Shown here: in pieces, positions 1 to 14,746 of the stretch
How positions within the stretch are numbered: the stretch's first letter is position 1
Layout: each line of letters opens with the position of its first letter
NCBI RefSeq assembly: GCF_900119895.1
Contig: NZ_FQLR01000004.1
Span: forward strand, 558,001 to 622,000
DNA length: 64,000 nt
Origin: Collinsella phocaeensis
Lineage (GTDB): Bacteria; Actinomycetota; Coriobacteriia; Coriobacteriales; Coriobacteriaceae
Reading direction: 5' to 3'
Position numbers and translations under genes: made by a program
The notes under the pieces: generated by a model
The model's input: the letters and a program-made list of their open reading frames with translations, nothing else
Databases searched by the model: none
Told to the model about the DNA's origin: nothing

Positions 1-473
1 GCCACGGAGATCACGGCCTCGGCCTCGCCGCCCCAGACCTCCTCGACGCGGCGCAGCGCCGCGAGCGCGTTCACGTGGTAGAGCAGGCACCCCCGCTCCG
101 TCGCGCCCGCGTCAACGTCGCCGACCGCCCAGCGCGTGTGCGCGAGGACCGCCGCCAGCGCCTCGGAGGCCGTCTTGGCCACCAGCTGCTCCTCCTCGAC
201 GAAGTCGCCCAGCAGCTCGCAGAGCGAGGACTCCGCGTAGACGTGCGCGGGCCCGCCCAGAGGCTCGTCGGTGCGCACCACCACGTGCTCGCGCCACACG
301 CCGTCCGTCGGGTCGCGCCACAGCAGCCGCTCGCCCTTCTCGGGGGCGGCCAGGCAGTCGAACTCGATCGTGTCCTCGCCGCCGACCTCCTCGACGTGCG
401 CGATCCCGCCCACCGTAGGCAGGATCCCCAGCCGCTCGTCGAAGCGGTCGAAGAGGTAGAGCGTCGGCACCAT
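1..473 (-). CDS. Phage tail-tip (endopeptidase-type) protein, N-terminal part, runs off the window
   Basis: An open frame starts at ATG 473 and continues through position 1 without a stop, so only about 157 residues are visible. The start overlaps the stop of the distal tail gene by one base (TGATG). It begins MVPTLYLFDRFDERLGILP and continues with a beta-rich segment. This resembles the N-terminal region of prophage tail endopeptidase/minor structural proteins, which normally follow the distal tail protein in siphophages. The assignment rests on gene order plus this N-terminal style; no catalytic part is in view. Confidence 0.6.
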   Translation of the reverse strand, partial: MVPTLYLFDRFDERLGILPTVGGIAHVEEVGGEDTIEFDCLAAPEKGERLLWRDPTDGVWREHVVVRTDEPLGGPAHVYAESSLCELLGDFVEEEQLVAKTASEALAAVLAHTRWAVGDVDAGATERGCLLYHVNALAALRRVEEVWGGEAEAVISV

Positions 474-1189
474 CAGAGCCACCTCTCCGTCCACGCCACC
501 GTGTGCGCCGAGCACCCGGAGAAGGCCAGGGAATGAGACCCCGGGGAAAGCGGGAAGAACGTGCTCTCAACCGCCACGTCGGCTGACGCGTCAGTCCCGT
601 CCACCGTCACGGCCTCGGCGGCGAAGTCCATCACCACCACGTCCCCGGCGGCGAAGTCGCGCTCCACGAGCACGTAGCGCCCCAGCTCGTCGGTCACCTT
701 CATCGACGAACCCGCGAGTGCCGTCAGCGTCGCCACGGGCCACGTCGCCCACGTTCCGCCCACCGTCAGCGTGCTCGCCGCGCTCGACTTCCCATCGCCG
801 TACGCCACCGGGTCGAAGCACGTGAACTCGACCTCGCAGGAGCCGCCCTCGAAGAGCGAGTCCCAGTCGGACACCCCGGTCACCACCGCGTCGCGCCACG
901 TCAGAGCGGGCTCGCCGGTGAGCGCGAGCTCCGCGCCCATGGGCGCGACCAGCCACCCGTACATCTCGTGCCGGATCGCGCTGCGCTCCTCCGCCGTGAG
1001 CGTCGCGCCCGCGTCCAGGAAGAGGCGCACCTTCAGCGCCCTCGGCGGCAGCTCGCACCCCAGCAGCGCCGCGCCCGGCCGCCCCGGCACCGCGAGCGCG
1101 CGCGGCGAGAGCGCGTGACCGGCGGGCTCCACCAGTTCCGCCGTCACGTGCTCAGAGAAGTCGTGCCCGTTGTAGGTGAGCGCGCTCAC
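473..1189 (-). CDS. Phage distal tail (Dit-like) protein
   Basis: The 238-residue product begins MSALTYNGHDFSEHVTAEL, the kind of opening seen in Sipho_tail/Dit proteins. It has the family-like middle with 'FDPVAYGD' near residue 130, where the N-terminal ring domain passes into the galectin-like domain. Dit forms the hub between tail tube and baseplate. It lies immediately upstream of the tail-tip gene, as expected. Directly upstream is only a 61-codon gene and then the tail terminator, so the tail-tube, chaperone and tape-measure genes that should intervene are missing. Confidence 0.72.
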   Translation of the reverse strand: MSALTYNGHDFSEHVTAELVEPAGHALSPRALAVPGRPGAALLGCELPPRALKVRLFLDAGATLTAEERSAIRHEMYGWLVAPMGAELALTGEPALTWRDAVVTGVSDWDSLFEGGSCEVEFTCFDPVAYGDGKSSAASTLTVGGTWATWPVATLTALAGSSMKVTDELGRYVLVERDFAAGDVVVMDFAAEAVTVDGTDASADVAVESTFFPLSPGSHSLAFSGCSAHTVAWTERWL

Positions 1190-2151: not shown

Positions 2152-2535
2152 CTATCTCACCCCCGCGAAGCAGAGGCCCGTCCCCGCGAGCTCCGCGAGC
2201 GCGGCCTCCCGCGCCACCTCCGAGCCGGTCGTGCCCTCGTCGCGGTAGTTCGTCACCGAGAAGGACCCGATGGAGAAGCCGCCCACGCGCCCCTCGCCGT
2301 ACTCGGCGAAGGCGTCGGCAGCCGCGCACACGGCGCGCCGCCAGGCGTCCGCGTCGCCCTCGTCCCACTCATCGCGCACGTCGCGCACCCCCGTGAGCGC
2401 GCCCACGCACCTCAGCGCCGCCGGCAGCGCCTCCGCGAAGGCGTCCGCCGCCAGCGCGCCGCCGTACCCGTCCTGGTAGAACCCGTAGGAGACGGGCGCG
2501 GGGCCGCAGCCGGCCGCGCCCGTCGCCACGTCCAT
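2152..2535 (-). CDS. Phage head-tail connector-like protein
   Basis: A 127-residue, acidic, Ala-rich and mostly helical product beginning MDVATGAAGCGPAPVSYGF. Position immediately after the major capsid gene (sharing base 2535) and before the head-closure gene is where gp6/gp15-type head-tail connectors lie. No specific motif is recognised, so the call is mainly positional. Confidence 0.5.
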   Translation of the reverse strand: MDVATGAAGCGPAPVSYGFYQDGYGGALAADAFAEALPAALRCVGALTGVRDVRDEWDEGDADAWRRAVCAAADAFAEYGEGRVGGFSIGSFSVTNYRDEGTTGSEVAREAALAELAGTGLCFAGVR

Positions 2536-3551
2536 CAGGCCAGCGGCGTGCAGGAGACGTGCACGCCGTCCAGCTTGTTGTCCAGGAGCTCCACGATGCC
2601 GTACTTGCGGTACTTCATCATGTAGCTGTCCAGGTTCTCCAGCTCGTCGGGCGAGAAGACCCTCGAGGCCACGTGCTTGTCGAACTTGATGACCGCCGAG
2701 CGCTCCACCACCATGAAGTTGATCGGAGCGCCCGCGCCCACCAGCTCGTAGTAGCTGGAGAGGCTGCCCGCCGCAGGCGAGGACACCTTGGTGTAGGTGC
2801 CGGAGCTCTCCGTGTAGTACGTCTTGCCGGGCGTGACGCTCGTGTCCTCGGTCTTCACGTAGCTGCCCTTGGCGCGCGAGTACCCGAACTGGTCCCCGTC
2901 GCCGGAGTTGAGCGCGATCGCGCTGTAGAAGCGCGTCTGCGGCACTTCCACGATGCGGGAGAAGCGCTCGAGCACGCGGTTGCTGCGCGCCGGGTTCGCG
3001 AGCGAGAAGTCGTCCAGCACGCCCTTGAGCGTCGGCGTGATGAAGAGGATGCGGCTCCCGGTCGTCACCTCCGCCTCGTCCATCGCGTTCGTCGCGGCGC
3101 GCAGGCTCGCCAGCACGTCCTCGGCCTCCGCGTCGGCGAAGTCCTCCGTCTCGGGCGTCACGCCCTCGTGCCCCGCGATCTCGGAGAAGGTGAAGGCGTC
3201 CGCCTCCGGCGCCACCTGCGTGCGCTGCAGCTCGGAGCCCGCCGCCACGAAGCAGTCGAGGACGCCCGCCTCCTCCACGTCCATGACGTCGGCGAGCAGC
3301 CTGATGCCGCGGTCATAGTTGAACGTCTTGGTCTCGAACTCGTAGGTGATCGAGCCGGTTTTGTACCCCACGTTGCGGGTGTAGTCGCCGAGGCCCGTCA
3401 CCTCGATCTTGGGGACCATGATCTCCTTCGCGTTGCGCCCCGCGCGCGCCATGCGGCGGGGGCTGTTCAGGCACGTCGAGCACGCGGCCCTCTTGTAGAC
3501 CTCGTCCAGGACGGCGGTGTAGTTCTTGGTGTACGCGACGCTGTTTGCCAT
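2535..3551 (-). CDS. Phage major capsid protein
   Basis: A 338-residue protein directly after the scaffold gene (3-base gap). It carries capsid-like features: an N-terminal arm, 'YKTGSITYEFETKTFNYDRG' near residues 63-82, and a C-terminal domain with 'AVIKFDKHVASRVFSPDE' around 286-303. It would build the icosahedral head. Residues about 230-270 form a Tyr/Thr/Gly-rich stretch containing 'PGKTYYTESSGTYTKV' and ending 'SSYYEL', which looks like an inserted decoration module recurrent in phage structural proteins. The reading frame is intact. Confidence 0.75.
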   Translation of the reverse strand: MANSVAYTKNYTAVLDEVYKRAACSTCLNSPRRMARAGRNAKEIMVPKIEVTGLGDYTRNVGYKTGSITYEFETKTFNYDRGIRLLADVMDVEEAGVLDCFVAAGSELQRTQVAPEADAFTFSEIAGHEGVTPETEDFADAEAEDVLASLRAATNAMDEAEVTTGSRILFITPTLKGVLDDFSLANPARSNRVLERFSRIVEVPQTRFYSAIALNSGDGDQFGYSRAKGSYVKTEDTSVTPGKTYYTESSGTYTKVSSPAAGSLSSYYELVGAGAPINFMVVERSAVIKFDKHVASRVFSPDELENLDSYMMKYRKYGIVELLDNKLDGVHVSCTPLA

Positions 3552-3554
3552 CAG

Positions 3555-4085
3555 TTACTCCTCGCTCTCGGGAAGGCCGGCGATCCTGCGCCAGCGGCTC
3601 ATCTGCGCGGACTCGTCGGCCCCGGCGGCGCCGGCGCTCGGGAGTCCCGTCGCGCCGGCCGGCGCGGGGGCGGCGGGTGCCGAGAAGAGCCAGGGCTCGG
3701 CGGCCTTGAGCTTCTCGATGTCGCCGTCGTGGTCTGCGAGGAGGGCGCGGGCGGCCTTGACGTTGCGCGCCCCGGCGAGCTGCAGCTCGAAGCCGACGCG
3801 CTCCTCGTCGCCCTTCCGGCGCAGCTCGTCCATCTCGGCGCGCAGCTTCTCCGCGCCCTCGGCGGTCTTCGCCGCCTCGGCGATCTCGCCCTCGAGCTCC
3901 GCGATCCGCGCGTCGCGCTCGGCGAGCGCCGCCTCATAGTCCTTGTGCGCATGGGCAACCGCGGCTCCGCCTTCGCCAGCGGAGACTACCTGCGCCTGCG
4001 CCGCCTCGCCCTGGTCGTCGCGCTGCGTCGTCTGCTGCGTCGATCCCTCGTCGCCGAGCTTCGTTTCGTCCTGCAAGCCATCCAT
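3555..4085 (-). CDS. Phage capsid scaffolding protein
   Basis: A 176-residue protein with a predicted long coiled coil at about residues 45-105 rich in Glu, Ala, Arg and Lys ('ALAERDARIAELEGEIAEAA'). An Ala/Pro/Gly linker and a short C-terminal segment (MSRWRRIAGLPESEE) follow. This is the standard architecture of GP20-type phage scaffolds, which template capsid assembly. GGAAAGGA upstream is a good ribosome site. Its upstream neighbour should be a minor head protein and the portal, but the defence cargo intervenes. Confidence 0.68.
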   Translation of the reverse strand: MDGLQDETKLGDEGSTQQTTQRDDQGEAAQAQVVSAGEGGAAVAHAHKDYEAALAERDARIAELEGEIAEAAKTAEGAEKLRAEMDELRRKGDEERVGFELQLAGARNVKAARALLADHDGDIEKLKAAEPWLFSAPAAPAPAGATGLPSAGAAGADESAQMSRWRRIAGLPESEE

Positions 4086-4105
4086 CTGCCCGTCCTTTCC
4101 ATAAG

Positions 4106-4126
4106 GCGGGCAAAGAAAAAGCCCGC
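4106..4126 (-). terminator. Hairpin upstream of the scaffold gene
   Basis: GCGGGC (4106-4111) pairs with GCCCGC (4121-4126) around an A-rich loop. It lies in the short gap before the scaffold gene and could end or attenuate readthrough from upstream minus-strand phage genes. It also lies within 120 bases of the phage-to-cargo junction. Confidence 0.35.
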
Positions 4127-4240
4127 ACCCAAACGATGGGTACAGGCTATGGGCGTGTCACAAGATGAGCTCCATATCGTCGGTATCCGTTGCGGGTAAT
4201 TCATGCTCATGCGAAAATAGACGAAACAAAATGTTGCATT

Positions 4241-6790
4241 ATGGTGCAGAAGGTTGTGATCGAAACGGCAGATAGGCTAAGCAAAGGAACATTCAAGAAA
4301 TGCGACATGCATCTTCATTCGAGCTCCTGCTACAGCAGGAACTACAGCAAGTCGGATTTCTTTAGCGCCCTATCGAGCGGCGACCTTGATGTGGTAGCCG
4401 TAACGGATCACAACAGCGTGGATGTTCAGCTCCTGTCAGAACTGCAGGCAGTGTTGACAGAAGAAGGCAAAACGCTGATAGGCGGAGTCGAGCTGAACGT
4501 CAAGCTTCAGCCTGAGACAATAAAACGTCACCACCTAAAGTTGGGCAAAGGCTCGAAAGGCGAGTACTTTCACGCCATAGTGTGGTTCTCGATGGATGAC
4601 GCTGCAACGATGGCGGAGGTGGTCACTCGTCTGTTTAAGAAGTGCCTGCTTTCTGAAATAGGCGCATCCATTGGAAGCGAATCGGCAATCCAATCGCAAT
4701 CTCCAAAGTCTTTCTCCAAGATGACCGAAGGAAAAGCAATCTTCCTTGAGGAATTTCAGAAAGAAGCCACTGCGATACCGCACTTCTTCATTCCGCACGA
4801 GAACAAGGATCGAAGTCTGTCTGCCTATCTACCGAACAATTGCCCGGAGAACCTGGCGTATAAAGATCGTCTCTTCTACTACAGCCATGCCATGGCGGTT
4901 GAAGGAGGGTCCAAAAGCAGAAAAAGTATATCGGCGGGTATGGCTAAGGAACTTCGCACAACAGTGGCTGCTTTGTTCTTCAGTGATGCAGAGTCAGAAG
5001 AAGAGATAGGATCCCGCTTTACATGGATTGATTTCGATGGTGACTTGGATTCGTTGCTGCTCGCTATCAGCGATCCTGAAAGCCGCATCAAGACATCTGA
5101 CGAATACTTTGAACCTCCCCAGACAAACACTAACTCATTTCTAGAATCGGTAACATTTAATACTTGCGTCGAAGGAGATCCGACAGCAGGGAAGACTGTG
5201 GAACTTCGATTTTCGCCAGGGTACAACGGCATCGTTGGCTCGAGAGGAAGCGGGAAAACCATGCTCGCATGCCTTCTCGCGGATAGGGGGCTCGACACCT
5301 ACTCTAACTTCGTAGAAACAGGCAGCGTGAGATACAAATTGCGCGATGGCGTTCCTACAGGCAACCGACCTCAGTGTCTCTACCTTGGACAGGGCGAGCT
5401 AGAAGAGATTTACAGGGGAGGTAAGTACGAGGAAATACATTTCTTGGGCGAGCGAGTCTCCCCATTGAAAGAGAAGGCGCAAAAAGAATCGGAACGAGCG
5501 TCCAAGAGGCTAGGCGAACTACTCGACCTTTCCAAAAGCCTAGTCATGGCGTTTTGTTCAAAGTACAGCGCTGTGCTCCGCATAGACCATCTCGACATTG
5601 CAACACCATCGGGAATCACTGTGGAGAAACCCTTCCTGCCACAAGCGGACATGCCGCAAGTTGAAAAGGCAAAGGATTCTCTCGAGGGGGTTGCCGACGC
5701 GCTATCCACAGCATCACAAGTATCCTCCACAGTCTCTTTCAAGGCATCATATCCTGAGAACGAGATACTGTTTGAAGCGCTTGAGATGGAAGCACGCGCT
5801 ATCCAGCGTGACGTTCTTGCTATTGCGGATCGCGCTAACAGGTTCTCGAAACTTCTGGGGGAAATTGAACCATCTTGGTTCGCAAGTCGCGATGAGCTCG
5901 TCTCTCTATGCTCGGAGATACTGAAGAAGCACAATAGAACTGACGGCTCTGCGACACTCGCCCAGTATGAAGAGCAGACAGAGCGCGCCGCTGAGTTCCT
6001 AGACGATTTGCTTGCGCTTCGAATTTTTCTCAAGCACATAGATTGTGAGGCTCGAGAAGAGTACGGAAAAATACACAAGCCAATCAGCCCAATGAAACTG
6101 TGGAACGGCGAAGAAACCATCGAAGTCGCGCTCTTTTATGAAGACGACTCCTCATATGATGACCTGATTGAAGGTCTCATCGGGTCATCATCCAACAACG
6201 ATTCCCAGGTACTTGTCGAAGCATTTCTCAGTCAATCCGATGGCAAACGAATGCATAAATGTTTCGATGGGAGGAAATTCAGATCCTGCTCAACATCAAG
6301 TCTTATTGAGCACTACCAGAAATTCTATGAATTAGCCAAGTCTTCGATAGCCAACGCCGGCGCTTTGAAAACATTGGTTGCAATTGACGGAGAGCCTATA
6401 GATGAAATGTCTCCAGGAATGAAGGCTCAGGCGCTTCTGAAGCTCTTTCTCAACGACGGCATCACTTCAGGGAGATGGACATATATCGTCCTCGACCAGC
6501 CGGAAGACAATCTCGATGTTGCAACCATTAAGGAATTCCTTATCGATCGACTAAAGAGCCTAAAGCTTAACGTTCAATTCTTCGTAGTTAGCCATTCTGC
6601 GCCCGTCATTGTAAACGGAGACGCGCGAACTGTTGTAGTGTGCCACAACGATAATAAGAGGATTGACTATGCCTATGGTCCGATGAACGACGGGGATATC
6701 AAGCAGTCCATAGCAGACGTTCTCGATGGTGGGGAGCGGTATCTGAAAATGCGTTTAAATAAGTACAACTTTCAGGTGGGAGATAGCTGA
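4241..6790 (+). CDS. TrlF-like protein: PHP phosphoesterase domain fused to SMC/ABC-type ATPase
   Basis: I place the start at ATG 4241 because the earlier in-frame TTG (4190) lacks coding character; the product is then 849 residues. The N-terminus has the PHP metal motif DMHLH (residues 22-26) and 'VAVTDHN'. A Walker A GSRGSGKT lies at about 333-340, followed by a helical/coiled middle, an ABC signature-like MSPGMKA (about 723) and Walker B LDQPEDNLD (about 751). This PHP+ATPase order matches the TrlF family found beside restriction systems. A PHP nuclease or phosphoesterase gated by ATPase sensing is inference. It overlaps the next gene and is AT-richer than the flanking phage genes, suggesting acquisition. 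Confidence 0.72.
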   Translation: MVQKVVIETADRLSKGTFKKCDMHLHSSSCYSRNYSKSDFFSALSSGDLDVVAVTDHNSVDVQLLSELQAVLTEEGKTLIGGVELNVKLQPETIKRHHLKLGKGSKGEYFHAIVWFSMDDAATMAEVVTRLFKKCLLSEIGASIGSESAIQSQSPKSFSKMTEGKAIFLEEFQKEATAIPHFFIPHENKDRSLSAYLPNNCPENLAYKDRLFYYSHAMAVEGGSKSRKSISAGMAKELRTTVAALFFSDAESEEEIGSRFTWIDFDGDLDSLLLAISDPESRIKTSDEYFEPPQTNTNSFLESVTFNTCVEGDPTAGKTVELRFSPGYNGIVGSRGSGKTMLACLLADRGLDTYSNFVETGSVRYKLRDGVPTGNRPQCLYLGQGELEEIYRGGKYEEIHFLGERVSPLKEKAQKESERASKRLGELLDLSKSLVMAFCSKYSAVLRIDHLDIATPSGITVEKPFLPQADMPQVEKAKDSLEGVADALSTASQVSSTVSFKASYPENEILFEALEMEARAIQRDVLAIADRANRFSKLLGEIEPSWFASRDELVSLCSEILKKHNRTDGSATLAQYEEQTERAAEFLDDLLALRIFLKHIDCEAREEYGKIHKPISPMKLWNGEETIEVALFYEDDSSYDDLIEGLIGSSSNNDSQVLVEAFLSQSDGKRMHKCFDGRKFRSCSTSSLIEHYQKFYELAKSSIANAGALKTLVAIDGEPIDEMSPGMKAQALLKLFLNDGITSGRWTYIVLDQPEDNLDVATIKEFLIDRLKSLKLNVQFFVVSHSAPVIVNGDARTVVVCHNDNKRIDYAYGPMNDGDIKQSIADVLDGGERYLKMRLNKYNFQVGDS

Positions 6791-7116
6791 TGATCACATG
6801 TGGGGCCAACGGAAACGTCGTCGTTCAAAATGGTGCGGAGTCCTTCGACTTGTCTTCTTCTGACGATTATTCCAATCTTGTTCTGAAACTAACATCTCCT
6901 GATGAAAGGGAGCACTTTCCTGCGGAGTTGTTCGAAGTTGATAAGGGTTTGACTGGTGACGAAAGAGCTAAGGCCGAGAGGTATTCTGAGTTCTTTTCCG
7001 ATTTTATAAATAGAAGGGCAGCCAAACTAGAAGAGATTGACGTCCCGACGTTTGAGCAGCGTGAAGCTTCAATAAGGGCATTTATTGAACGCCTAAGGCG
7101 GGAGAACGATAGGTAG
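6790..7116 (+). CDS. Small partner protein of the TrlF-like ATPase, unknown function
   Basis: A 108-residue acidic product whose ATG overlaps the TGA of the TrlF-like gene (TGATG), so the two are translationally coupled. It starts with a short beta-like segment (MITCGANGNVVVQNGAESF) and ends in charged helices with 'RRAAKLEEIDVPTFEQREAS'. I do not recognise a family. The coupling suggests it is a subunit, inhibitor or substrate adaptor of the ATPase. A perfect hairpin terminator follows at 7260. Confidence 0.6.
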   Translation: MITCGANGNVVVQNGAESFDLSSSDDYSNLVLKLTSPDEREHFPAELFEVDKGLTGDERAKAERYSEFFSDFINRRAAKLEEIDVPTFEQREASIRAFIERLRRENDR

Positions 7117-7259
7117 AAGTTCTACAATTGCTGTCTTCTGTAATTATTGCCGACTTATTGTCTCTAGAATATCGCCCGCACCACAGCTAGTCCAATGTCA
7201 GGGGTCGAGGAGAAAACTCGCTCCTGCAACTCTCGAAATAACTGGTGCTTTTTAATAGA

Positions 7260-7303
7260 GCCGCATGGTCTTTTCGAATTTCCCCTCGAAAAGACCATGC
7301 GGC
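7260..7303. terminator. Bidirectional hairpin between convergent genes
   Basis: A perfect 18-bp inverted repeat (7260-7277 with 7286-7303) and an 8-base loop ATTTCCCC. It contains TCTTTTCGA/TCGAAAAGA, so both strands carry a short T-rich arm. It separates the plus-strand TrlF-like pair from the minus-strand NotI-type endonuclease and probably terminates both. Confidence 0.7.
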
Positions 7304-7312
7304 ATAAGCCAT

Positions 7313-8155
7313 CTATTCAAAGAGGTTGAACCTATATTCTGGTGTCGCCCGTTCAAGAATTCTGGCGTTTATCACTTCAAGCTCATGATTGCTGTTAACA
7401 TCCGCCCCCATGATTCGCTCAACACCAGCCAAATCAGCACCGAGTTGACGCGCAAGGGTGAGCTCCATTTTAGTTTCAGAACTTAGATAATCATACGCAT
7501 GTAGGTTAAACACGTCAGTTGACCTTTGCTGGTGCACCTCAGAAAAGTCAAAGTTCTCCTGCATATAGTCAAGCAGGGGTGTTTGGCATATCAGCACAAG
7601 CTTGCGGTTCATACCTGCAAACATCTGCGTCTTTTGAATCATTTGGGCAAGAATCGTCTTGGCGGTCATTTTCCAATTCACGCCGGCCTTACGGCCGCGT
7701 GATACAACATGGTCAGCGAGCTCATAGTCGGCCAGCATGTTTTGTCGTTCATCCCATATCGTTCCTACGGTGTCCATCGTTTGCAATTCGATGGCAACAA
7801 AGTCTTGAACTTTGTCGCCATTGACAACAGCAAGAACATAATCGATGGATCCAACAGCTGTCTTGACCTCTGGGATAAGATAGAGCTCCCCGCCGGTAAC
7901 ATGAACATACTGAAGACAGTCGAGAAAAATCTTCTTACCCTCTGTTAGCCGATCGGGGCAAATGAGCAAAGGCTGTTCGCAAGTATTGAATACAAGTGAG
8001 CAGGTGCCAATTTTCGTATCAGGGTCACTCTTTCTCATTTTCGTACATATCCCAGAGCGATTGAAGGGACAGACTTGAGTAGATAAAACAATACTCAAGT
8101 CAGGAAAGACCGGGCCATTGGTGTAATATCCGAACATTTCGTTCACTGCGTACAT
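7313..8155 (-). CDS. NotI-family type II restriction endonuclease
   Basis: A 280-residue product with four early cysteines (C29, C37, C52, C66), suiting the iron-cysteine metal site described for NotI. They are followed by a PD-(D/E)XQ nuclease core: 'IPEVKT' (E96), 'SIDY' (D105) and 'AIELQ' (E123, Q125). These match the catalytic arrangement of NotI, which cleaves a long GC-rich site. The gene lies downstream of, and overlaps by 13 bases, a DNA methyltransferase gene. The frame is intact and somewhat AT-rich. Cleavage specificity cannot be read from the sequence. Confidence 0.78.
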   Translation of the reverse strand: MYAVNEMFGYYTNGPVFPDLSIVLSTQVCPFNRSGICTKMRKSDPDTKIGTCSLVFNTCEQPLLICPDRLTEGKKIFLDCLQYVHVTGGELYLIPEVKTAVGSIDYVLAVVNGDKVQDFVAIELQTMDTVGTIWDERQNMLADYELADHVVSRGRKAGVNWKMTAKTILAQMIQKTQMFAGMNRKLVLICQTPLLDYMQENFDFSEVHQQRSTDVFNLHAYDYLSSETKMELTLARQLGADLAGVERIMGADVNSNHELEVINARILERATPEYRFNLFE

Positions 8156-9222
8156 AGCCGCTCCTCAGCAGTCTCCAAGTATTCACGACCCAAATCAATT
8201 CCGATAGATCTTCTTCCCATGTCACGAGCAACTTTGCATGTAGTTCCCGTTCCGACAAATGGGTCTAGCACTATTCCCCCTTGGGGGCAGGTAAGAGCAA
8301 TTGGGTTCTTTACAAGATCCTCTGGATATGGGGCATAATGACTTTTGCGGTTTTGAGTGTCTTCGGGAATGATGTCCCAAACGTCAGAGATATTAGCGCC
8401 CTTATTGCTGTACTTAAGAAAGTAAAATCCCTTTTCAGCAAGCTCCTTGGCGCGGCCACTTAATTTTGTGGAGTCCCCGTGGGTAGTACGCGAAGCGCCT
8501 CTGATTACCATTCGGAAATCCGGAACTTCACCCTTCTCGACCTGTAACAACATATCTTCAAGCGCCCTCATCGCGCAAGATTTTTCCTCATCGGTGAGTT
8601 CCGTTGAAAGTTCGATTTTGCGACGATACCTCACACCGGATACGCCTGTTGCAGAGACAACCGCACCATGCTTCGTGCTCTTCGCTTTACGTGGCGGTTT
8701 ACGAGCTGCATCTATATCATAAAAGTATCCATTGGGTGATTTTGTCAAAAAGAAGACGCTTTCCCAGAGGGTACGCATCTTATCCTTAGCATTGTCAGGA
8801 GCGCCTTTAAGTTTGTTCCAGACAACATGATTCCTGAGCGTAAAGCCAACGTCATCTGTAAGCCGTATGGCGACACGTTCAGGAACCATTATGAGAGATT
8901 TATCCTGATAAGAATCCCCGATATTTAGCCAAAAAGATCCTGCAGGCTTAAGAACTCGATAGACCTCAGCGCAGATCGCGACAAGGTTATTAACGTACTC
9001 CTGCCAGGTATCTTCAAGCCCGATTCCACCACCGGAATACTCTCGCTTCATGTAATACGGTGGGGAAGTAATGGCGCAATCGATGCATTCGTCAGGCAAA
9101 GATTTCAAAATATCAAGCGAATCCCCTTCGACTAAGAGGGGGTCAAGAGCCGTATCAGAAATGTATTGGGCTAACACGCCCGTATCCCGTGTAATCAAAG
9201 AAGGGTTCCCTTCGTCTAGCAA
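8143..9222 (-). CDS. DNA methyltransferase of the NotI-like system (beta class, SPPY type)
   Basis: A 359-residue product with the catalytic TSPPYY at residues 52-57 and the SAM-binding DPFVGTG at about 320-326, in the catalytic-first order of beta-class enzymes. The Ser-Pro-Pro-Tyr form is typical of N4-cytosine methylases, though N6-adenine cannot be excluded. It is cotranscribed with, and precedes, the NotI-like nuclease (13-base overlap), so its role is to protect self DNA from that enzyme. Several basic inserts between residues 180 and 250 may be the target-recognition region. Confidence 0.82.
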   Translation of the reverse strand: MLDEGNPSLITRDTGVLAQYISDTALDPLLVEGDSLDILKSLPDECIDCAITSPPYYMKREYSGGGIGLEDTWQEYVNNLVAICAEVYRVLKPAGSFWLNIGDSYQDKSLIMVPERVAIRLTDDVGFTLRNHVVWNKLKGAPDNAKDKMRTLWESVFFLTKSPNGYFYDIDAARKPPRKAKSTKHGAVVSATGVSGVRYRRKIELSTELTDEEKSCAMRALEDMLLQVEKGEVPDFRMVIRGASRTTHGDSTKLSGRAKELAEKGFYFLKYSNKGANISDVWDIIPEDTQNRKSHYAPYPEDLVKNPIALTCPQGGIVLDPFVGTGTTCKVARDMGRRSIGIDLGREYLETAEERLCTQ

Positions 9223-9891
9223 TGATTCCGACTTTTTATTATCCCATTAGTGGAAGCTTCACACGATCGGATGGGATTGGATGACGACAAATTACAAACA
9301 ACAGGTAGATTGGCCACACCCCACCACCACCCGCTACTCATCGAGGGCCGTCCGCAGCCCACCCGCCTCCGCTCCGTTGCGCGCACGGCTCGGAAACCGC
9401 CCCGCCCTGCGCATGAAAGCGATACTCACGGCCATGCCCGCCGCTCCGGCTGTGTATTGCTCCGCGGCTCGGGCCAGCCAGCTTCGCCTACGTGTTGCTC
9501 CCGGCTCAGGTCAGCCGGCTGCGCCGTCTGCCCTTCGCGGCGGTCGCACACTCCGGCTACGCTGTCTGTCCCTCGCGGCGCTGCGCATACACAGCCTACG
9601 CTCTGGGCATGGCCTGTTGGGAGTTTGACGTGCGCAGGTCGGGTCGGTTCCTCGCAGCGGCGCGCACTCCGCTACGGCAGATGGGCTGCTGCCCTTTCGC
9701 TCTTGTTCGCGGGTGGTGGTGGGGTGTGGCTGTCCTCGCAGCCCTCGCCGAGGGGCAGCGAGCGCGACCCTGCGGCGACGTCGCCCCGGGCTTCCGCACG
9801 GCCGTCACGCGCTCAAGAGAGGCGCCCCGGATCCCCGAGGGAGCCGGGGCACGCGACGACGTCCCGCAGCCGCCTGCGGCGGCATCGGGGC
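9223..9891. other. 669-bp GC-rich non-coding stretch, phage/cargo junction
   Basis: No credible gene: open readings here have composition typical of random GC-rich frames and no ribosome site. AT-richer cargo sequence ends near 9290 and phage-like GC content resumes. The normal gene between portal and scaffold, a minor head protein, is absent. A block of degenerate tandem repeats lies inside at 9454-9602. Confidence 0.5.
9454..9602. repeat. Degenerate ~38-bp tandem repeats
   Basis: Four units start at about 9454, 9492, 9526 and 9564 (spacings 38, 34, 38). Each opens with GTnTTGCTCC or GTCTGnCCnTCGCGGCG and the clearer ones end CTACGCT; the last two are easiest to align. A weaker fifth unit may follow near 9635. 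They are non-coding and lie beside the prophage portal gene. Confidence 0.45.
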
Positions 9892-11394
9892 TCACCTGAC
9901 CTGATGCGACCCGCCCGCGACCCCTCGGCGCTTCGCGGTCGCCTCGTCCTCGCCGCGCCACTTGGCGCGGTACTCCCACGGCTCCATGAGACCGGCAGCG
10001 ACCTCGTCCATGTCCTGCCGCTTCTCGGCCGTCGTGTCCGTGATGATGCTGTCGTCGAACGTCACGCGCACGAGCCCCTCGTCGGGCAGCTCGACGCCCA
10101 GGCGCCGCTCCGCCGCCAGCAGCGCCCGGCAGATGCCCGCAATCGCGCCCTCGAGCGCGCGCTCGTGTCTCCGGATGTTGCGCATCAGCGCCGAGTTGTC
10201 CGCCGACACCTCCGTGGCCGTCTTCACGTAGCCGACGTTCTCGAGGTCGAAGTAGTTGATGCCGAACCCGCAGAGGTCGCCGAGCGTCTGCAGCGCGACC
10301 CTGAACGCCCGCGCCCGCGCCTCGGTCCTCAGCGTAGGCGCGAACTCATGGATCGTGTCCTCCGTGCTCATGACCTTCCTGAACACCGTGCAGTCCTGCC
10401 GCCCGAAGGGGATGGAGACGCGCCCGCCCCTGCCGTCGCGCTCCGTATCGAACATCACGTCCGAGAGGAAAACGCGCATCTTGCCGTTGTCGATCTCCGA
10501 CATCATCGCGTCGTAGCACAGGTCGACCGCCTGAATGGCGTCAACCGCGTCCGCGAACACCGACTGCCCGTAGGGCGACATGTCCACCCGCGTGTTGTCG
10601 ATGGCCGGCCTCACAAGCGAGAACGTCGGCCACGGCGAGCCCGTGTCGTACACCGGGCACACGCCCTCCGGCTTGACGCGGTTCCCGTCCCGGTCGAAGC
10701 ACGCCGTGACGATCCGATACGTGCCCTCGCCCTCACCATCCGTTAGGCGAGAAGGACCCGCGCCCGCACTCTCTCCAAGAGATTCGCTTGGCGAGAAGAA
10801 CGTGCCGTCAGCACCCTTCAAGTGCAGCTGCACCTGGTCGACCGCGCGCCCGCGCCAGAACGCCCGCGTGACGAACGCGCACTCGGTCACGCCCTCCTCG
10901 TCCCACGTGAGCGGCACCACCATCCGCGCGTCGTAGCGCCGCGCGCGCACCTCGCCCGCACCCGCGTCAACCCAGAGCGCCCACGCGCCCGTCCCCAGGC
11001 CGAACGCCCGCACCACGCACTCCTGCGCCGAGGCGAGAAACCCGGTCCGCGCCATCCACGCCGCGAGCCAGTCCGTGCACGCCTGCTCCTCGCACGCCAC
11101 CTGCGTCCGGTCGTTCAGCAGCAGCGACCCCCACTCGCGGCACACCCGCATGGCGGGGTGGATCGAGCGCCTGTGAACCTCGTACACCCGCCCGACCCCG
11201 TCCGTGTCCCGGTAGTCGTAGAAGTCCCCGAGCGCCCGCATCCACCGGTCCCAGGCGCGAATATGAGGCTCCATGTCCTCCAGCGGCAGCGAGAACCCGA
11301 GCCCCCGCAGCCAGGCCCGAACATGCTCCGGCACCCAGTACTCGTCATCCAGCCCCTGCACAGCGCACCTCCCGCCTCGTCCGAACACGCCCAT
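9892..11394 (-). CDS. Phage portal protein
   Basis: A 500-residue product of the size of SPP1 gp6-like portals. It opens 'MGVFGRGGRCAVQGLDDEYW' and has the family-like early segment 'NDRTQVACEEQACTDWLAAW' near residue 95. A long helical stem and a C-terminus rich in 'EYRAKWRGEDEATAKRR' follow, a characteristic portal ending. The portal is the dodecameric channel for DNA packaging. The gene is complete, but it is separated from the scaffold gene by 5.8 kb of defence cargo, and no terminase lies upstream. Confidence 0.75.
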   Translation of the reverse strand: MGVFGRGGRCAVQGLDDEYWVPEHVRAWLRGLGFSLPLEDMEPHIRAWDRWMRALGDFYDYRDTDGVGRVYEVHRRSIHPAMRVCREWGSLLLNDRTQVACEEQACTDWLAAWMARTGFLASAQECVVRAFGLGTGAWALWVDAGAGEVRARRYDARMVVPLTWDEEGVTECAFVTRAFWRGRAVDQVQLHLKGADGTFFSPSESLGESAGAGPSRLTDGEGEGTYRIVTACFDRDGNRVKPEGVCPVYDTGSPWPTFSLVRPAIDNTRVDMSPYGQSVFADAVDAIQAVDLCYDAMMSEIDNGKMRVFLSDVMFDTERDGRGGRVSIPFGRQDCTVFRKVMSTEDTIHEFAPTLRTEARARAFRVALQTLGDLCGFGINYFDLENVGYVKTATEVSADNSALMRNIRRHERALEGAIAGICRALLAAERRLGVELPDEGLVRVTFDDSIITDTTAEKRQDMDEVAAGLMEPWEYRAKWRGEDEATAKRRGVAGGSHQVR

Positions 11395-11763
11395 TGAACC
11401 CGCCCGTCACAAAGGGCAAAGAACAAAGAGCGCCAGGCGAGAAGAACGCCCGAGATTCAGCACCCAACTGAATTGCGCTTTGGGCGAGAAGAACGAGCGC
11501 GCACGCACCTACACCAGCGCCTTTCCACATTCTCGCGAGAGGCTGTCGATAACCTCCCGGCGCTCCGCGCGTTCCGTTGCCCAGCGTTCCAAAGCGTCTC
11601 ATGCCGAGAAGAACGTGCCGTGGGCCCGATGTGGAAAACTCCCGCATGCCGCCCGTATAATGGGGCGTACGGGACGAGAAGAGCCGTGCGCCCATGCGTC
11701 GGCCCAGGCTCGCGGGAGCCTCCAACGGCGCGGCCGGGCAATGTCCCCGTCGAAAGGATCAAG
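11395..11763. other. Intergenic region with dispersed CGAGAAGAAC motifs
   Basis: No gene is seen. The motif (G/C)CGAGAAGAACG occurs at 11437, 11484 and 11604, with a variant at 11674; a further copy lies inside the portal gene at 10791. A TATAAT box at 11656-11661 is a plausible -10 for the hydrolase gene, although no good -35 is seen. Terminase genes expected here are missing. Confidence 0.45.
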
Positions 11764-12501
11764 ATGGTCACTCATACGCTCGGCACGGGCACGCGGACGG
11801 CGGTGCTCCTGCACGGGGGCGGCCTCTCGTGGTGGAACTACCGGGCAGTCGCCGACCTGCTCGCCGCCAACGGGTACCGCGTCGTGCTCCCCGTGCTCGA
11901 CGGGCACGCCGGCTCGGACCGCCCGTTCACCTCGATCGAGGACAACGCCTCCGAGCTCGTGGCCCTCATCGACCGCGCGCTCGGCGGGCGCGTCGACGCG
12001 CTCGGCGGCGTCTCCCTCGGGGCGCAGGTCGCTCTCGAGGCCCTTGCGCAGCGGCCGCAGATCGCGGGGCGCGCCGTCATCGAGAGCGCGCTCGTGCTCC
12101 CCATGCGCGCTGCCCGCGCCCTCGTCGCGCCCGCCGTCGCCCTGAGCCACCCGCTCGTGCGGCGCCCCTGGTTCTCGCGGGCGCAGTTCGCAAGCCTTCA
12201 CCTCCCCGAGGAGCTCTACGAGCCCTACTACCGTGACAGCTGTGCCATATCGAAGCGGGACATGATCGCCTTCATGCGGGAGAACAGCTCCTACCGGCTG
12301 AAGCCCGAGCTCGCGGGCTGCGGGGCGCGGGCCACCATCCTCGTCGGCGGGAAGGAGCCCCGCATCATGGTGCGCTCGGCGCGCGCCCTGGCTGAGGCCA
12401 TGCCGGGCAGCACGCTCGTCGAGCACCCTGGCTGGCGGCACGGCGAGGCGAGCTTGTGGTATCCCGAGGTCTATCTCGAGGCGTTCGAGGGTCGCCCATA
12501 A
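11764..12501 (+). CDS. Alpha/beta hydrolase family protein
   Basis: The ATG at 11764 follows AAAGGA and gives 245 residues; the longer upstream frame is non-coding. It has the oxyanion-loop HGGG (17-20), the nucleophile elbow GVSLG (82-86, Ser84) and a late His in 'HPGWRHGE' near residue 219, the expected catalytic order. The likely role is a cytoplasmic esterase, lipase or similar; the substrate is unknown. The gene is alone, followed by a hairpin at 12529, and has GC content like the flanks. Confidence 0.75.
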   Translation: MVTHTLGTGTRTAVLLHGGGLSWWNYRAVADLLAANGYRVVLPVLDGHAGSDRPFTSIEDNASELVALIDRALGGRVDALGGVSLGAQVALEALAQRPQIAGRAVIESALVLPMRAARALVAPAVALSHPLVRRPWFSRAQFASLHLPEELYEPYYRDSCAISKRDMIAFMRENSSYRLKPELAGCGARATILVGGKEPRIMVRSARALAEAMPGSTLVEHPGWRHGEASLWYPEVYLEAFEGRP

Positions 12502-13149: not shown

Positions 13150-13767
13150 ATGACAGAAGCAGAGGCCATCGCTAAGCGCATAGAGAGCTTCGGCGCCGGC
13201 AGGGCCTTCACAGCCGCCGACTTCTCCGACGTCGCAGGCCGACGCAACACTGCCAACGCGCTCGGGCGCTTGCATGCAAAGGGAGGAATCGCCCGCGCCA
13301 TCCGCGGCGTCTACTACGTGCCGGAGCGCAGCGCGCTCATGGGCACCGAGGTGCCGGCCAGCGCCGACGAGGTCGTGCGCGCCATCGCCCGTGCCAACAA
13401 GTGGATCGTCGCACCGTCCGGCGACGCGGCGCTCAATGCGCTGGGCCTCGACACGCAGGTGCCCGCAAAGCTCGTCTATGTTAGCAGCGGTCCGTACAAG
13501 CGCTACGAGTACGGGCCGTACGATATCGAGCTCCGGCACCGCGCCAACCGCGACCTGCTCGACTGCTCGCAGATCACCTGCACCATCGTGCAAGCCCTCA
13601 AGGCGCTCGGACGCGAAAATGTGGGCGACGAGGAAATCAGAACGCTCGCGCGCAACCTCACGGAAGGGCAGGCCGGCGCGTTCCTGGAAGAGTCGGCGGG
13701 GCTCACCTCCTGGGTTGCCGACGCTGCGAAGAAGATATGGGAGGCGAAGCATGGACAGGATCGCTAG
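13150..13767 (+). CDS. AbiEi-like type IV antitoxin / repressor (DUF6088 type)
   Basis: A 205-residue product starting six bases after a strong AAGGAGG. Residues 1-65 look like a winged helix-turn-helix ('TAADFSDVAGRRNTANALGR'), followed by 'GVYYVPERSALMG', typical of AbiEi/DUF6088 antitoxins. The C-terminal half holds 'APSGDAALNALGLDTQVP', also characteristic. It would repress the operon through the 13103 palindrome and neutralise the downstream nucleotidyltransferase toxin. It overlaps that gene by 17 bases. Confidence 0.8.
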   Translation: MTEAEAIAKRIESFGAGRAFTAADFSDVAGRRNTANALGRLHAKGGIARAIRGVYYVPERSALMGTEVPASADEVVRAIARANKWIVAPSGDAALNALGLDTQVPAKLVYVSSGPYKRYEYGPYDIELRHRANRDLLDCSQITCTIVQALKALGRENVGDEEIRTLARNLTEGQAGAFLEESAGLTSWVADAAKKIWEAKHGQDR

Positions 13768-14746
13768 GGCCTCGACTGGCGAGCGCAGGCTGGTCTTCGA
13801 GGCCGCCGCGCAGAGGATGGCGCTTGCGCCGGCCGTCGTCGAGAAGGACTTCTGGGTGTGCTACACCTTGGACCACCTTTTCCACAGAAGCGGCTTCGCC
13901 GAGTCCATGGTGTTCAAGGGCGGTACGAGTCTGTCGAAGGCTTTCGGGCTCATCGAGCGCTTCTCGGAGGACATCGACCTCATACTCGATTGGCGACTCC
14001 TGGGCTACGGCGAGGACGAACCGTGGGAGCCGCGCAGCAACTCGGCGCAGGAGCGGTTCAAGGCCGACAGCATCGAGCGCACGAACGCCTTCCTGGCCGA
14101 CGCCTTCGTCCCGAAGCTCAGGGCTACGCTCTCCGAGTCCCTCGGCACCGAAGCGTCCGTTAGGTGCGGGGTCGAGGAGGAGACCGTGTACTTCGACTAC
14201 CCGCGCTCCTACGAGTCTGCGGGCACGCTCGACACCATCAAGCTGGAGATAGGACCCATGGCGGCATGGTCGCCCTCCGAGGAGGCGGCGATAACCCCGT
14301 ACGCGGCGGACGTGGTTCCGTTCGGGCCCGAGCTGTCGACCACGGTGCGCACCGCGAGTCCTGTGCGCACGTTTTGGGAGAAGGCCACCATCCTGCACCA
14401 GGAGGCCAACAGGCCCGAGGGCAAGGCTATGCCCAGGCGCTACTCCCGCCATTACTACGACATGTACCGCCTTGGCCACTCGTTCGTGCTCGGCCGCGCT
14501 GTCGCGCAGCCTGGCCTCCTCGAACAGGTCGTCAGGTTCAAAGAGAAGTTCTACCGCACGCCGTGGGCCAAGCTGGCCGACGCGAGGCCCGGCACGCTCA
14601 GGCTCGCCCCTCCAAAGGGCAGGCTCGACGAGTTGGCGGTCGATTACGCCTCGATGAGGCCGATGCTGTTCGGCAGCTACCCGAGCATCGATGAGATAGT
14701 CGCCTATATGGCGGAGCTCGAGGAGACCATCAACGGGCTAAGCTGA
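13751..14746 (+). CDS. AbiEii-like nucleotidyltransferase toxin
   Basis: Started at ATG 13751, it gives 331 residues. It shows 'VEKDFWVCYTLDHLF' (30-44), the nucleotidyltransferase motif KGGTSLSK (56-63) and EDIDL (73-77) with the metal-binding acidic pair. These are the hallmarks of AbiEii toxins, which transfer nucleotides to tRNA or other acceptors and arrest growth during phage infection. The frame and all visible active-site residues are intact. An IS3 remnant begins 54 bases downstream. Confidence 0.85.
   Translation: MDRIARASTGERRLVFEAAAQRMALAPAVVEKDFWVCYTLDHLFHRSGFAESMVFKGGTSLSKAFGLIERFSEDIDLILDWRLLGYGEDEPWEPRSNSAQERFKADSIERTNAFLADAFVPKLRATLSESLGTEASVRCGVEEETVYFDYPRSYESAGTLDTIKLEIGPMAAWSPSEEAAITPYAADVVPFGPELSTTVRTASPVRTFWEKATILHQEANRPEGKAMPRRYSRHYYDMYRLGHSFVLGRAVAQPGLLEQVVRFKEKFYRTPWAKLADARPGTLRLAPPKGRLDELAVDYASMRPMLFGSYPSIDEIVAYMAELEETINGLS

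Follow-up and report, generated by a model that had tools for sequence, protein, structure and literature searches.

The antiviral hotspots of P2 and P4 are approximately 1–5 kb long and lie beside cos, and other defense hotspots occur near the integrase or repressor genes of Vibrio and Bacillus prophages, according to Rousset et al. (2022; PMC9122126). A different kind of variable locus is formed by MuF genes, which are situated directly 3′ of portal genes and carry variable accessory toxin domains, as Jamet et al. (2017; PMC5576092) describe. Here we analyze 64,000 nucleotides of the Collinsella phocaeensis genome (hereafter the window; positions 558001–622000 of a 1.59-Mb contig), in which the portal and scaffold genes of a prophage are separated by accessory genes, along with related loci and genomes (L and G numbers, respectively). 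The portal-scaffold gap of these elements is a lineage-wide cargo slot, and it is a prophage defense hotspot of the P2/P4 kind whose position and edges are new. More specifically, we consider it likely (probability about 0.7) that the gap is a permanent accessory-gene slot of a temperate Coriobacteriia phage lineage, insulated by its edges and with contents that are exchanged by recombination.

Like the P2 and P4 hotspots, the slot is a short, high-turnover, defense-rich locus between two conserved phage genes, and like the P2 hotspot it adjoins the portal gene (PMC9122126). The same source places the P2 hotspot between a replication gene and the portal gene, next to cos, whereas the slot lies between portal and scaffold inside the head operon. 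The P2/P4 loci of ~1–5 kb are also smaller than the 4.7–16 kb seen here, where the edges are a long fold-back hairpin (in most loci), which we call the rod, and a terminator-like leader (PMC9122126). A limited literature search returned no published portal-scaffold defense slot or comparable rod, although this does not establish their absence.

In the window, the portal gene (9892–11394, minus strand; PHROG 533, 2.2e-82) and the scaffold gene (3555–4085, minus strand; PHROG 31118, 2.9e-48, with a weak match to Pfam Phage_scaffold) anchor the slot, and the major capsid protein gene (2535–3551, minus strand; PHROG 422, 1.2e-68) follows the scaffold. All three are complete open reading frames (ORFs) on one strand, as an earlier note on this DNA had stated, and the G+C profile that it proposed bears out its description of 5.8 kb of AT-richer DNA between them: the gap of 5,806 bp has 50.2% G+C (lowest 1 kb, 45.5%) vs. 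69.5% for the portal gene and 73.8% for the scaffold gene.

Relatives of the portal were found in 17 of the 65 genomes of the family, at 37 loci of the named genome collection, chiefly in Collinsella, Olsenella, and uncultured Atopobiaceae/Coriobacteriaceae, and at nine loci in IMG/VR; many are 89–95% identical, in Collinsella/Olsenella and others. The gap could be measured in 17 distinct loci, of which the window is one, defined as those with a close portal and a scaffold on one fetched stretch. In all 17 the slot sits between these two conserved genes of one phage family, with a portal-scaffold distance of 4,670–11,023 bp that exceeds 5 kb in 16, and in 16 the G+C content of the gap is below that of the portal gene, the exception being L040. 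Further gaps measure 9.6 kb (L181), 12.7 kb (L184) and 10.1 kb (L182, in which the portal is broken), and the longest are those of G043 (16.2 kb) and G018 (14.7 kb). This count leaves out 47 of 67 portal loci with no scaffold on the fetched stretch (including L037, L048, L053, and L054), many of which end at contig ends or at the 10-kb flank, as well as the scaffold loci that lack a portal (10 of 20).

The earlier note had suggested either a novel integration hotspot or a replacement, and the comparison of this junction in related prophages supports both in part. All 17 measured loci carry cargo of differing contents, so its proviso that intact relatives might hold the same genes here, as normal lysogeny/defense genes, fails because the slot genes differ from locus to locus. 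Its other proviso, that no relatives with a contiguous portal and scaffold might exist, holds within the close lineage, where no locus with adjacent portal and scaffold, that is no empty site, was seen, but not among distant relatives.

Restriction-modification genes of several kinds occupy the slot (type III, type I, EcoRII-like, Eco57I-like, and C5-methylase), along with Abi_2 proteins and TrlF-like ATPases, and with a glycosyltransferase group in G043 and G018. Pfam N6_N4_Mtase was matched in the slots of the window, L041, L047, L056, and L063, whereas other loci have C5-methylase (L046), ResIII (L045), EcoRII-C (L062), Eco57I (L061), HsdR (L064), or Abi_2 (L043). Across 85 cargo proteins (83 of the 121 called cargo ORFs plus two from L133, excluding duplicate ORFs from the same phage and apparently antisense frames), Pfam assigned seven to N6_N4_Mtase, seven to ResIII, and three each to DNA_methylase, Abi_2, and SRAP. 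The Pfam and PADLOC tallies of these proteins are thus rich in antiviral systems, as raw counts without a background comparison. Exchange of cargo is suggested by the fact that L056 and L093 have 7.6 kb in common, whereas the type III module is all that L092 has in common with them. Turnover is not universal, however, since L047 and L172 carry the same cargo.

Some of the cargo falls outside these categories. The 14.7–16.2 kb of G043 (L039/L133) and G018 (L043/L134) hold Abi_2, a resolvase, and glycosyltransferases and, by eye, genes for a flippase, a polymerase, and a NusG-like protein; the two of these that were run against Pfam had no match. Next to restriction-modification genes, the slot of L061 (Olsenella SW781, 5277–8345) carries what resembles a macrolide efflux/protection pair: a major facilitator superfamily transporter, recognized by eye, and a protein of ABC-F-like type (Pfam ABC_tran, ABC_tran_Xtn). 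An SRAP (YedK-like) gene lies near the scaffold leader on the opposite strand in L036, L041, L056, L060, L062, L093, and L154, and one was seen near the leader by eye in L138.

The prophage in the window is a remnant: when the window and the adjoining 38 kb on its left were searched with the integrase, primase, and terminase genes of two relatives, no credible counterpart turned up, only a lone integrase fragment (28% identical; L005, 16102–16548), and the fiber region 3′ of Tal is truncated (read on L005). This lack of genes from integrase to terminase would suit an alternative in which host defense genes landed once in dead phage DNA and replaced what was there. However, relatives that have integrase, primase, terminase, and lysis genes hold cargo at the same place, and we regard such a one-off event as very improbable. 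With the slot present in 17 of 17 loci, we rejected the view of the cargo as an accident of one decaying prophage.

What the slot probably displaced is suggested by more distant phages. A MuF-like gene lies 3′ of the portal in all four distant relatives (L049–L052; portals 34–45% identical), and the MuF query, which was taken from L052, had no match in the close loci. The earlier note had remarked that the minor head gene is missing from the gap, and the profile searches used indeed found none there. In Listeria phage A118 and phage Fontainebleau the portal, minor head, and scaffold genes follow each other in compact order. Based on the retention of MuF in the distant relatives and of the compact order in A118 and Fontainebleau, the most likely course is a single replacement of the minor head gene, with the site turning into a hotspot thereafter. 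The position of MuF genes directly after the portal fits a replacement at the slot: the MuF polymorphic toxins occupy the same place 3′ of the portal, and the difference is that sequence searches detected no MuF protein here and that whole multi-gene systems are present instead (PMC5576092).

A possible early stage of the slot is represented by Eggerthella phage PMBT5 (NC_048022), whose capsid is related (36%) and which has 3.8 kb of accessory genes, including a Lar-like restriction-alleviation gene, between MuF and scaffold. PMBT5 differs in that MuF and tape-measure genes are present, in that its accessory genes are short and collinear, and in the absence of a rod, its hairpin depth of 113 being within the range of the controls (up to 121).

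The rod forms the portal-side edge of the slot. In the window it is an end-to-end fold-back hairpin of ~418 nt (9313–9730, no strand assigned) that was recognized by inverted-repeat search, folding, and paired changes; its ends are perfect 22-bp inverted repeats (9313–9334/9709–9730), and the RNA-fold z-scores of its two strands are −8.2 and −12.2. It is joined to the portal stop by a conserved non-coding spacer (9731–9891, minus strand), with 90% blastn identity to L042 across spacer and rod. This portal-side flank is common to the window, L042, L092, L102, and L124, whereas their cargo-side flanks are not. By blastn the rod occurs in 14 of 65 family genomes (weakly in G048 and G052), and in the source genome as a single copy. 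Rods without blastn similarity are nevertheless present 3′ of the portal in L045, L046, L161, L063, L064, and L119. The z-scores of rods elsewhere are −14.8 (L063), −5.5 (L061), and −3.6 (L046). The tips in L045, L046, L061, L064, L119, and L161 match that of the window (GCAGAC and a GC-rich stem), while the tip of L063 differs; an alignment of the diverged tips falls out of register away from the tip.

Two overlapping scans for deep hairpins 3′ of the portal (L061/L162 and L093/L155 are each the same phage) support the recurrence of the rod. The first gave a depth above 130 in 10 of 13 loci; L040, at 133 against up to 132 in its own shuffles, was taken as not above them, and the other shuffles reached at most 104. 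The second gave a depth above 125, a limit fixed after the values were seen, in 10 of 16 close loci, compared to at most 121 in 24 control stretches and at most 113 in seven distant or isolated phages. In L160 and L036 the rod is outside the scanned 2 kb.

To assess pairing we aligned 19 rod copies, leaving out partial and near-identical ones. RNAalifold predicted 126 pairs, of which 24 had changed in both partners. With three pairs dropped, 98.6% of cells were paired, compared to 95.5% in shuffles and 24–47% with slid partners, and 21 pairs had changed on both sides vs. 12.7 in shuffles. Part of this pairing is expected, since the structure was derived from the same sequences; the changes on both sides are not expected on that ground.

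We tentatively propose, at odds clearly below even, that the rod represents a new class of phage RNA: a hairpin of ~420 nt selected on one strand, which separates the head messages from the cargo and anchors cassette exchange in a lineage lacking tail-tube and tape-measure genes. Somewhat short of an even chance, but a serious contender, is that the rod is instead a fold-back DNA element, similar to a miniature inverted-repeat transposable element or acting as a recombination or packaging site, in which the two arms would have served as templates for each other and so given rise to the paired changes; in palindromes, such template switching can produce apparent covariation. The perfect 22-bp inverted-repeat ends with their sharp edges have the look of such an element, as do the inverted rod copies and the second copies that flank single genes. 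It is less easily reconciled with the strand bias of the rod, as in all of the 25 copies, which are related to one another, the strand corresponding to portal sense in the window folds into the more stable RNA, and the 94 pairs common to the folds of both strands contain 27 G-U vs. 10 A-C cells. Nor would such an element be expected as a single copy in the source genome, or 3′ of the portal in the six loci where blastn finds no similarity.

Other identities for the rod were rejected. It is not a described RNA, given that none of 4,227 Rfam models reached its gathering score in the window, L041, L042, or L045 and that window positions 9200–11800 had no Rfam match at E up to 1. A spread host repeat is contradicted by the single copy in the source genome and the one lone partial copy in G003. 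A protein-coding origin is inconsistent with lengths that vary by non-multiples of three (400–418 in the short type) and with the lack of a frame that is stop-free across all 19 copies. An exact search of IMG/VR with the 22-nt rod end gave no matches. The partial copy in G003 (L142, ~9541–9691) is located among ordinary host genes, with no phage genes seen nearby.

The scaffold-side edge is the leader of the scaffold gene (4086–4164, minus strand; from folds and alignment), which consists of CTTGTGAC followed by a terminator-like hairpin (4120–4148 and a U tract). YTTGTGAC occurs directly 5′ of the scaffold, with the variants CTGTGAC in L046 and TTTGCGAC in L168; the constancy of this octamer is partly by construction because it was included in the search pattern. 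A hairpin of at least 11 pairs, often followed by a U-rich tract, is present in 23 of 27 leaders (folds read by eye), while those of L045, L046, L156, and L168 fold otherwise. In an alignment of 19 of the 27, the arms vary in sequence between loci and the hairpin is kept. The assignment of TTGTGAC as a −35 box was rejected, as no common −10 hexamer was seen by eye.

Taken together, these features point to a late operon that would be divided in two, with terminase and portal in one half, scaffold and capsid in the other, and the accessory slot in the middle. The first half would end with the portal and, in most loci, the ~420-nt rod, and the second would open with TTGTGAC and the terminator-like hairpin, followed by scaffold and capsid. 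DNA of probable foreign origin lies between these edges, mostly restriction-modification, abortive-infection, and TrlF-like genes in either reading direction. The edges may insulate the cargo such that defense genes could be read in the lysogen, which they would protect, while the head genes stay off; after induction, an antiterminated late transcript would read through the slot. Cargo would be exchanged and stacked by recombination within the shared edges. Stacking is suggested by additional rods or rod fragments flanking single genes in five loci (L096, L036, L163, L160, and L040) and by a second copy of the leader in L155. In the source genome the rest of the prophage appears to have decayed while the slot and its anchors persist.

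Several observations weigh against this account. As every close relative found carries cargo, insertion into an empty site is not directly demonstrated. Ten of the 20 order-wide scaffold loci have no portal within 15–17 kb upstream, and therefore larger slots or portal loss also occur; in five of them (L166, L168, L169, L171, and L173) another 20 kb upstream was also without a terminase or portal match, and scaffold loci of this kind may be remnants or other elements. The rod was absent from L041, L047, and L121 in both scans and borderline in L172 (120), the number of pair types in it did not exceed that of shuffles (217 of 500), and in L062/L163 and L066 it lies the other way round, which means that the rod has no set orientation relative to the portal. 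The reading of the leader as a terminator is drawn from its conservation, and a generic terminator scan of the window scored no higher than shuffles. With respect to the cargo, no Pfam family was assigned to six of 20 singly scanned proteins, and the L042 pair matched AAA and Radical_SAM, which are not defense families. Insulation and antitermination are steps that we infer, and the defense role of the cargo is a prediction from sequence.

A further consideration is whether these elements are phages at all. In the window, Dit (distal tail protein; 473–1189, minus strand; PHROG 202, Pfam SPP1_Dit) comes straight after the two head-tail adaptors (2152–2535 and 1822–2151, both minus strand; PHROGs 541 and 793), and the space is too small for a tail-tube and a tape-measure gene. 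No such gene was seen between adaptors and Dit in L129, L133, L143, and L145, four elements covered all the way from capsid to endolysin, or in L130 and L131, which were covered up to the fiber gene, and PHROGs named none of nine structural and lysis proteins of L145 as tail-tube or tape-measure. This absence, together with a primase-helicase such as that of L145, is what would be expected of satellites that make their own head and tail tip, rely on a helper for tail tube and tape measure, and use the slot for cargo as P4 does. We regard a satellite nature as unlikely, however, based on the fact that the lineage has Dit, Tal, fiber, and endolysin genes (all found in L145). The capsid-forming PICI/cf-PISP elements are similar in having their own head genes without a full tail, and one has a recombinase between portal and adaptor, but they are described as being without tail genes (PMC13230959). 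In addition, no resident helper was seen in six carriers (G043, G044, G050, G018, G059, and G052), none of which has a PhageMin_Tail match anywhere, this being the one tape-measure family searched; the strength of this argument is lessened by PhageMin_Tail matches on another contig in carriers G048 and G002. The lineage is thus either a short-tailed siphovirus derivative or a satellite that encodes a tail tip, and we prefer the siphovirus derivative, short of proof. The gene order itself, in which the adaptors are followed by Dit and Tal and genes for tail tube, chaperone, and tape measure were not observed, would also suit a tail-less derivative. A separate arrangement was observed in L166 (G135) and L168 (G229, reversed) and their upstream stretches L174/L175, where an integrase and large cargo genes precede scaffold, capsid, adaptors, and Dit with no terminase or portal match in ~35 kb upstream; these could be remnants, or satellites with shell and tip genes.

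For phage biology, the slot means that an operon for head morphogenesis can be divided and serve as a cargo site. Having two conserved anchors and two recurring edges it is also easy to search for, and unknown defense systems of gut Actinomycetota can therefore be listed by position. The rod poses a testable question of its own, namely whether a giant hairpin RNA is kept by a phage for insulating or exchanging cargo.

The cargo of the window consists of two convergent modules, an ATPase and partner on the plus strand and a methyltransferase and candidate endonuclease on the minus strand. The first had been described in the earlier note as a TrlF-like pair, and it does comprise an SMC-type ATPase (4241–6790, plus strand; ATG at 4241, open frame from 4190) and a 108-aa partner (6790–7116, plus strand; ORF call), for which Pfam, PHROG, PADLOC, and NCBIfam searches found no family. 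The ATPase matched NCBIfam TrlF_fam_ATP (8.2e-65) with 220 bits, below the cut-off of 350, as well as Pfam AAA_21 and SMC_N, with a weak PHP-like metallohydrolase match at the N-terminus. By sequence it is accordingly a TrlF/Ppl-like protein related to the TrlF family (NF045780), but not a member by the curated cut-off rule. TrlF homologs occur in seven of 247 genomes of the order, and in the source genome and G147 the TrlF-like gene adjoins the scaffold and is directed away from it.

Of the "NotI-type" restriction system claimed for the second module, the DNA methyltransferase (8143–9222, minus strand; Pfam N6_N4_Mtase, 6e-47) and a candidate restriction endonuclease (7313–8155, minus strand; PADLOC REase_II, 1.5e-7, and a PHROG with no assigned function) stand, while the type was not confirmed by Pfam, PDB, or modeling. 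The candidate endonuclease had no Pfam family up to E = 1 and only a lone weak, unrelated match among PDB sequences (E 0.11), its AlphaFold2 model was unusable (mean confidence score, pLDDT, 36), and no relatives were confirmed in IMG/VR. A D..ExQ pattern and a cysteine spacing like those of NotI may be present. Between the modules lies an 18-bp perfect inverted repeat (7260–7303, no strand assigned; inverted-repeat search), possibly a two-way terminator.

On the other side of the portal there is a further variable site, smaller than the slot, between terminase and portal (window 11395–12501; also L041, L042, and L062), composed of a conserved non-coding stretch and single genes. The stretch (11395–11760, minus strand; 85–87% identical to L036, L041, and L044) carries repeats of GAGAAGAACG, of which the window has five copies vs. 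0.17 expected, four of them within or just before the portal gene (10793–11615); by eye, the repeat is also found at the cargo edges of relatives. The single gene of the window encodes an alpha/beta hydrolase (11773–12501, plus strand; Pfam Abhydrolase_6, 5.3e-18), and the same gene was seen by eye at this site in L041 and L062. Just past the portal side of the remnant is an AbiEi/AbiEii pair (13150–14746; PADLOC, 2.4e-57 and 1.4e-94).

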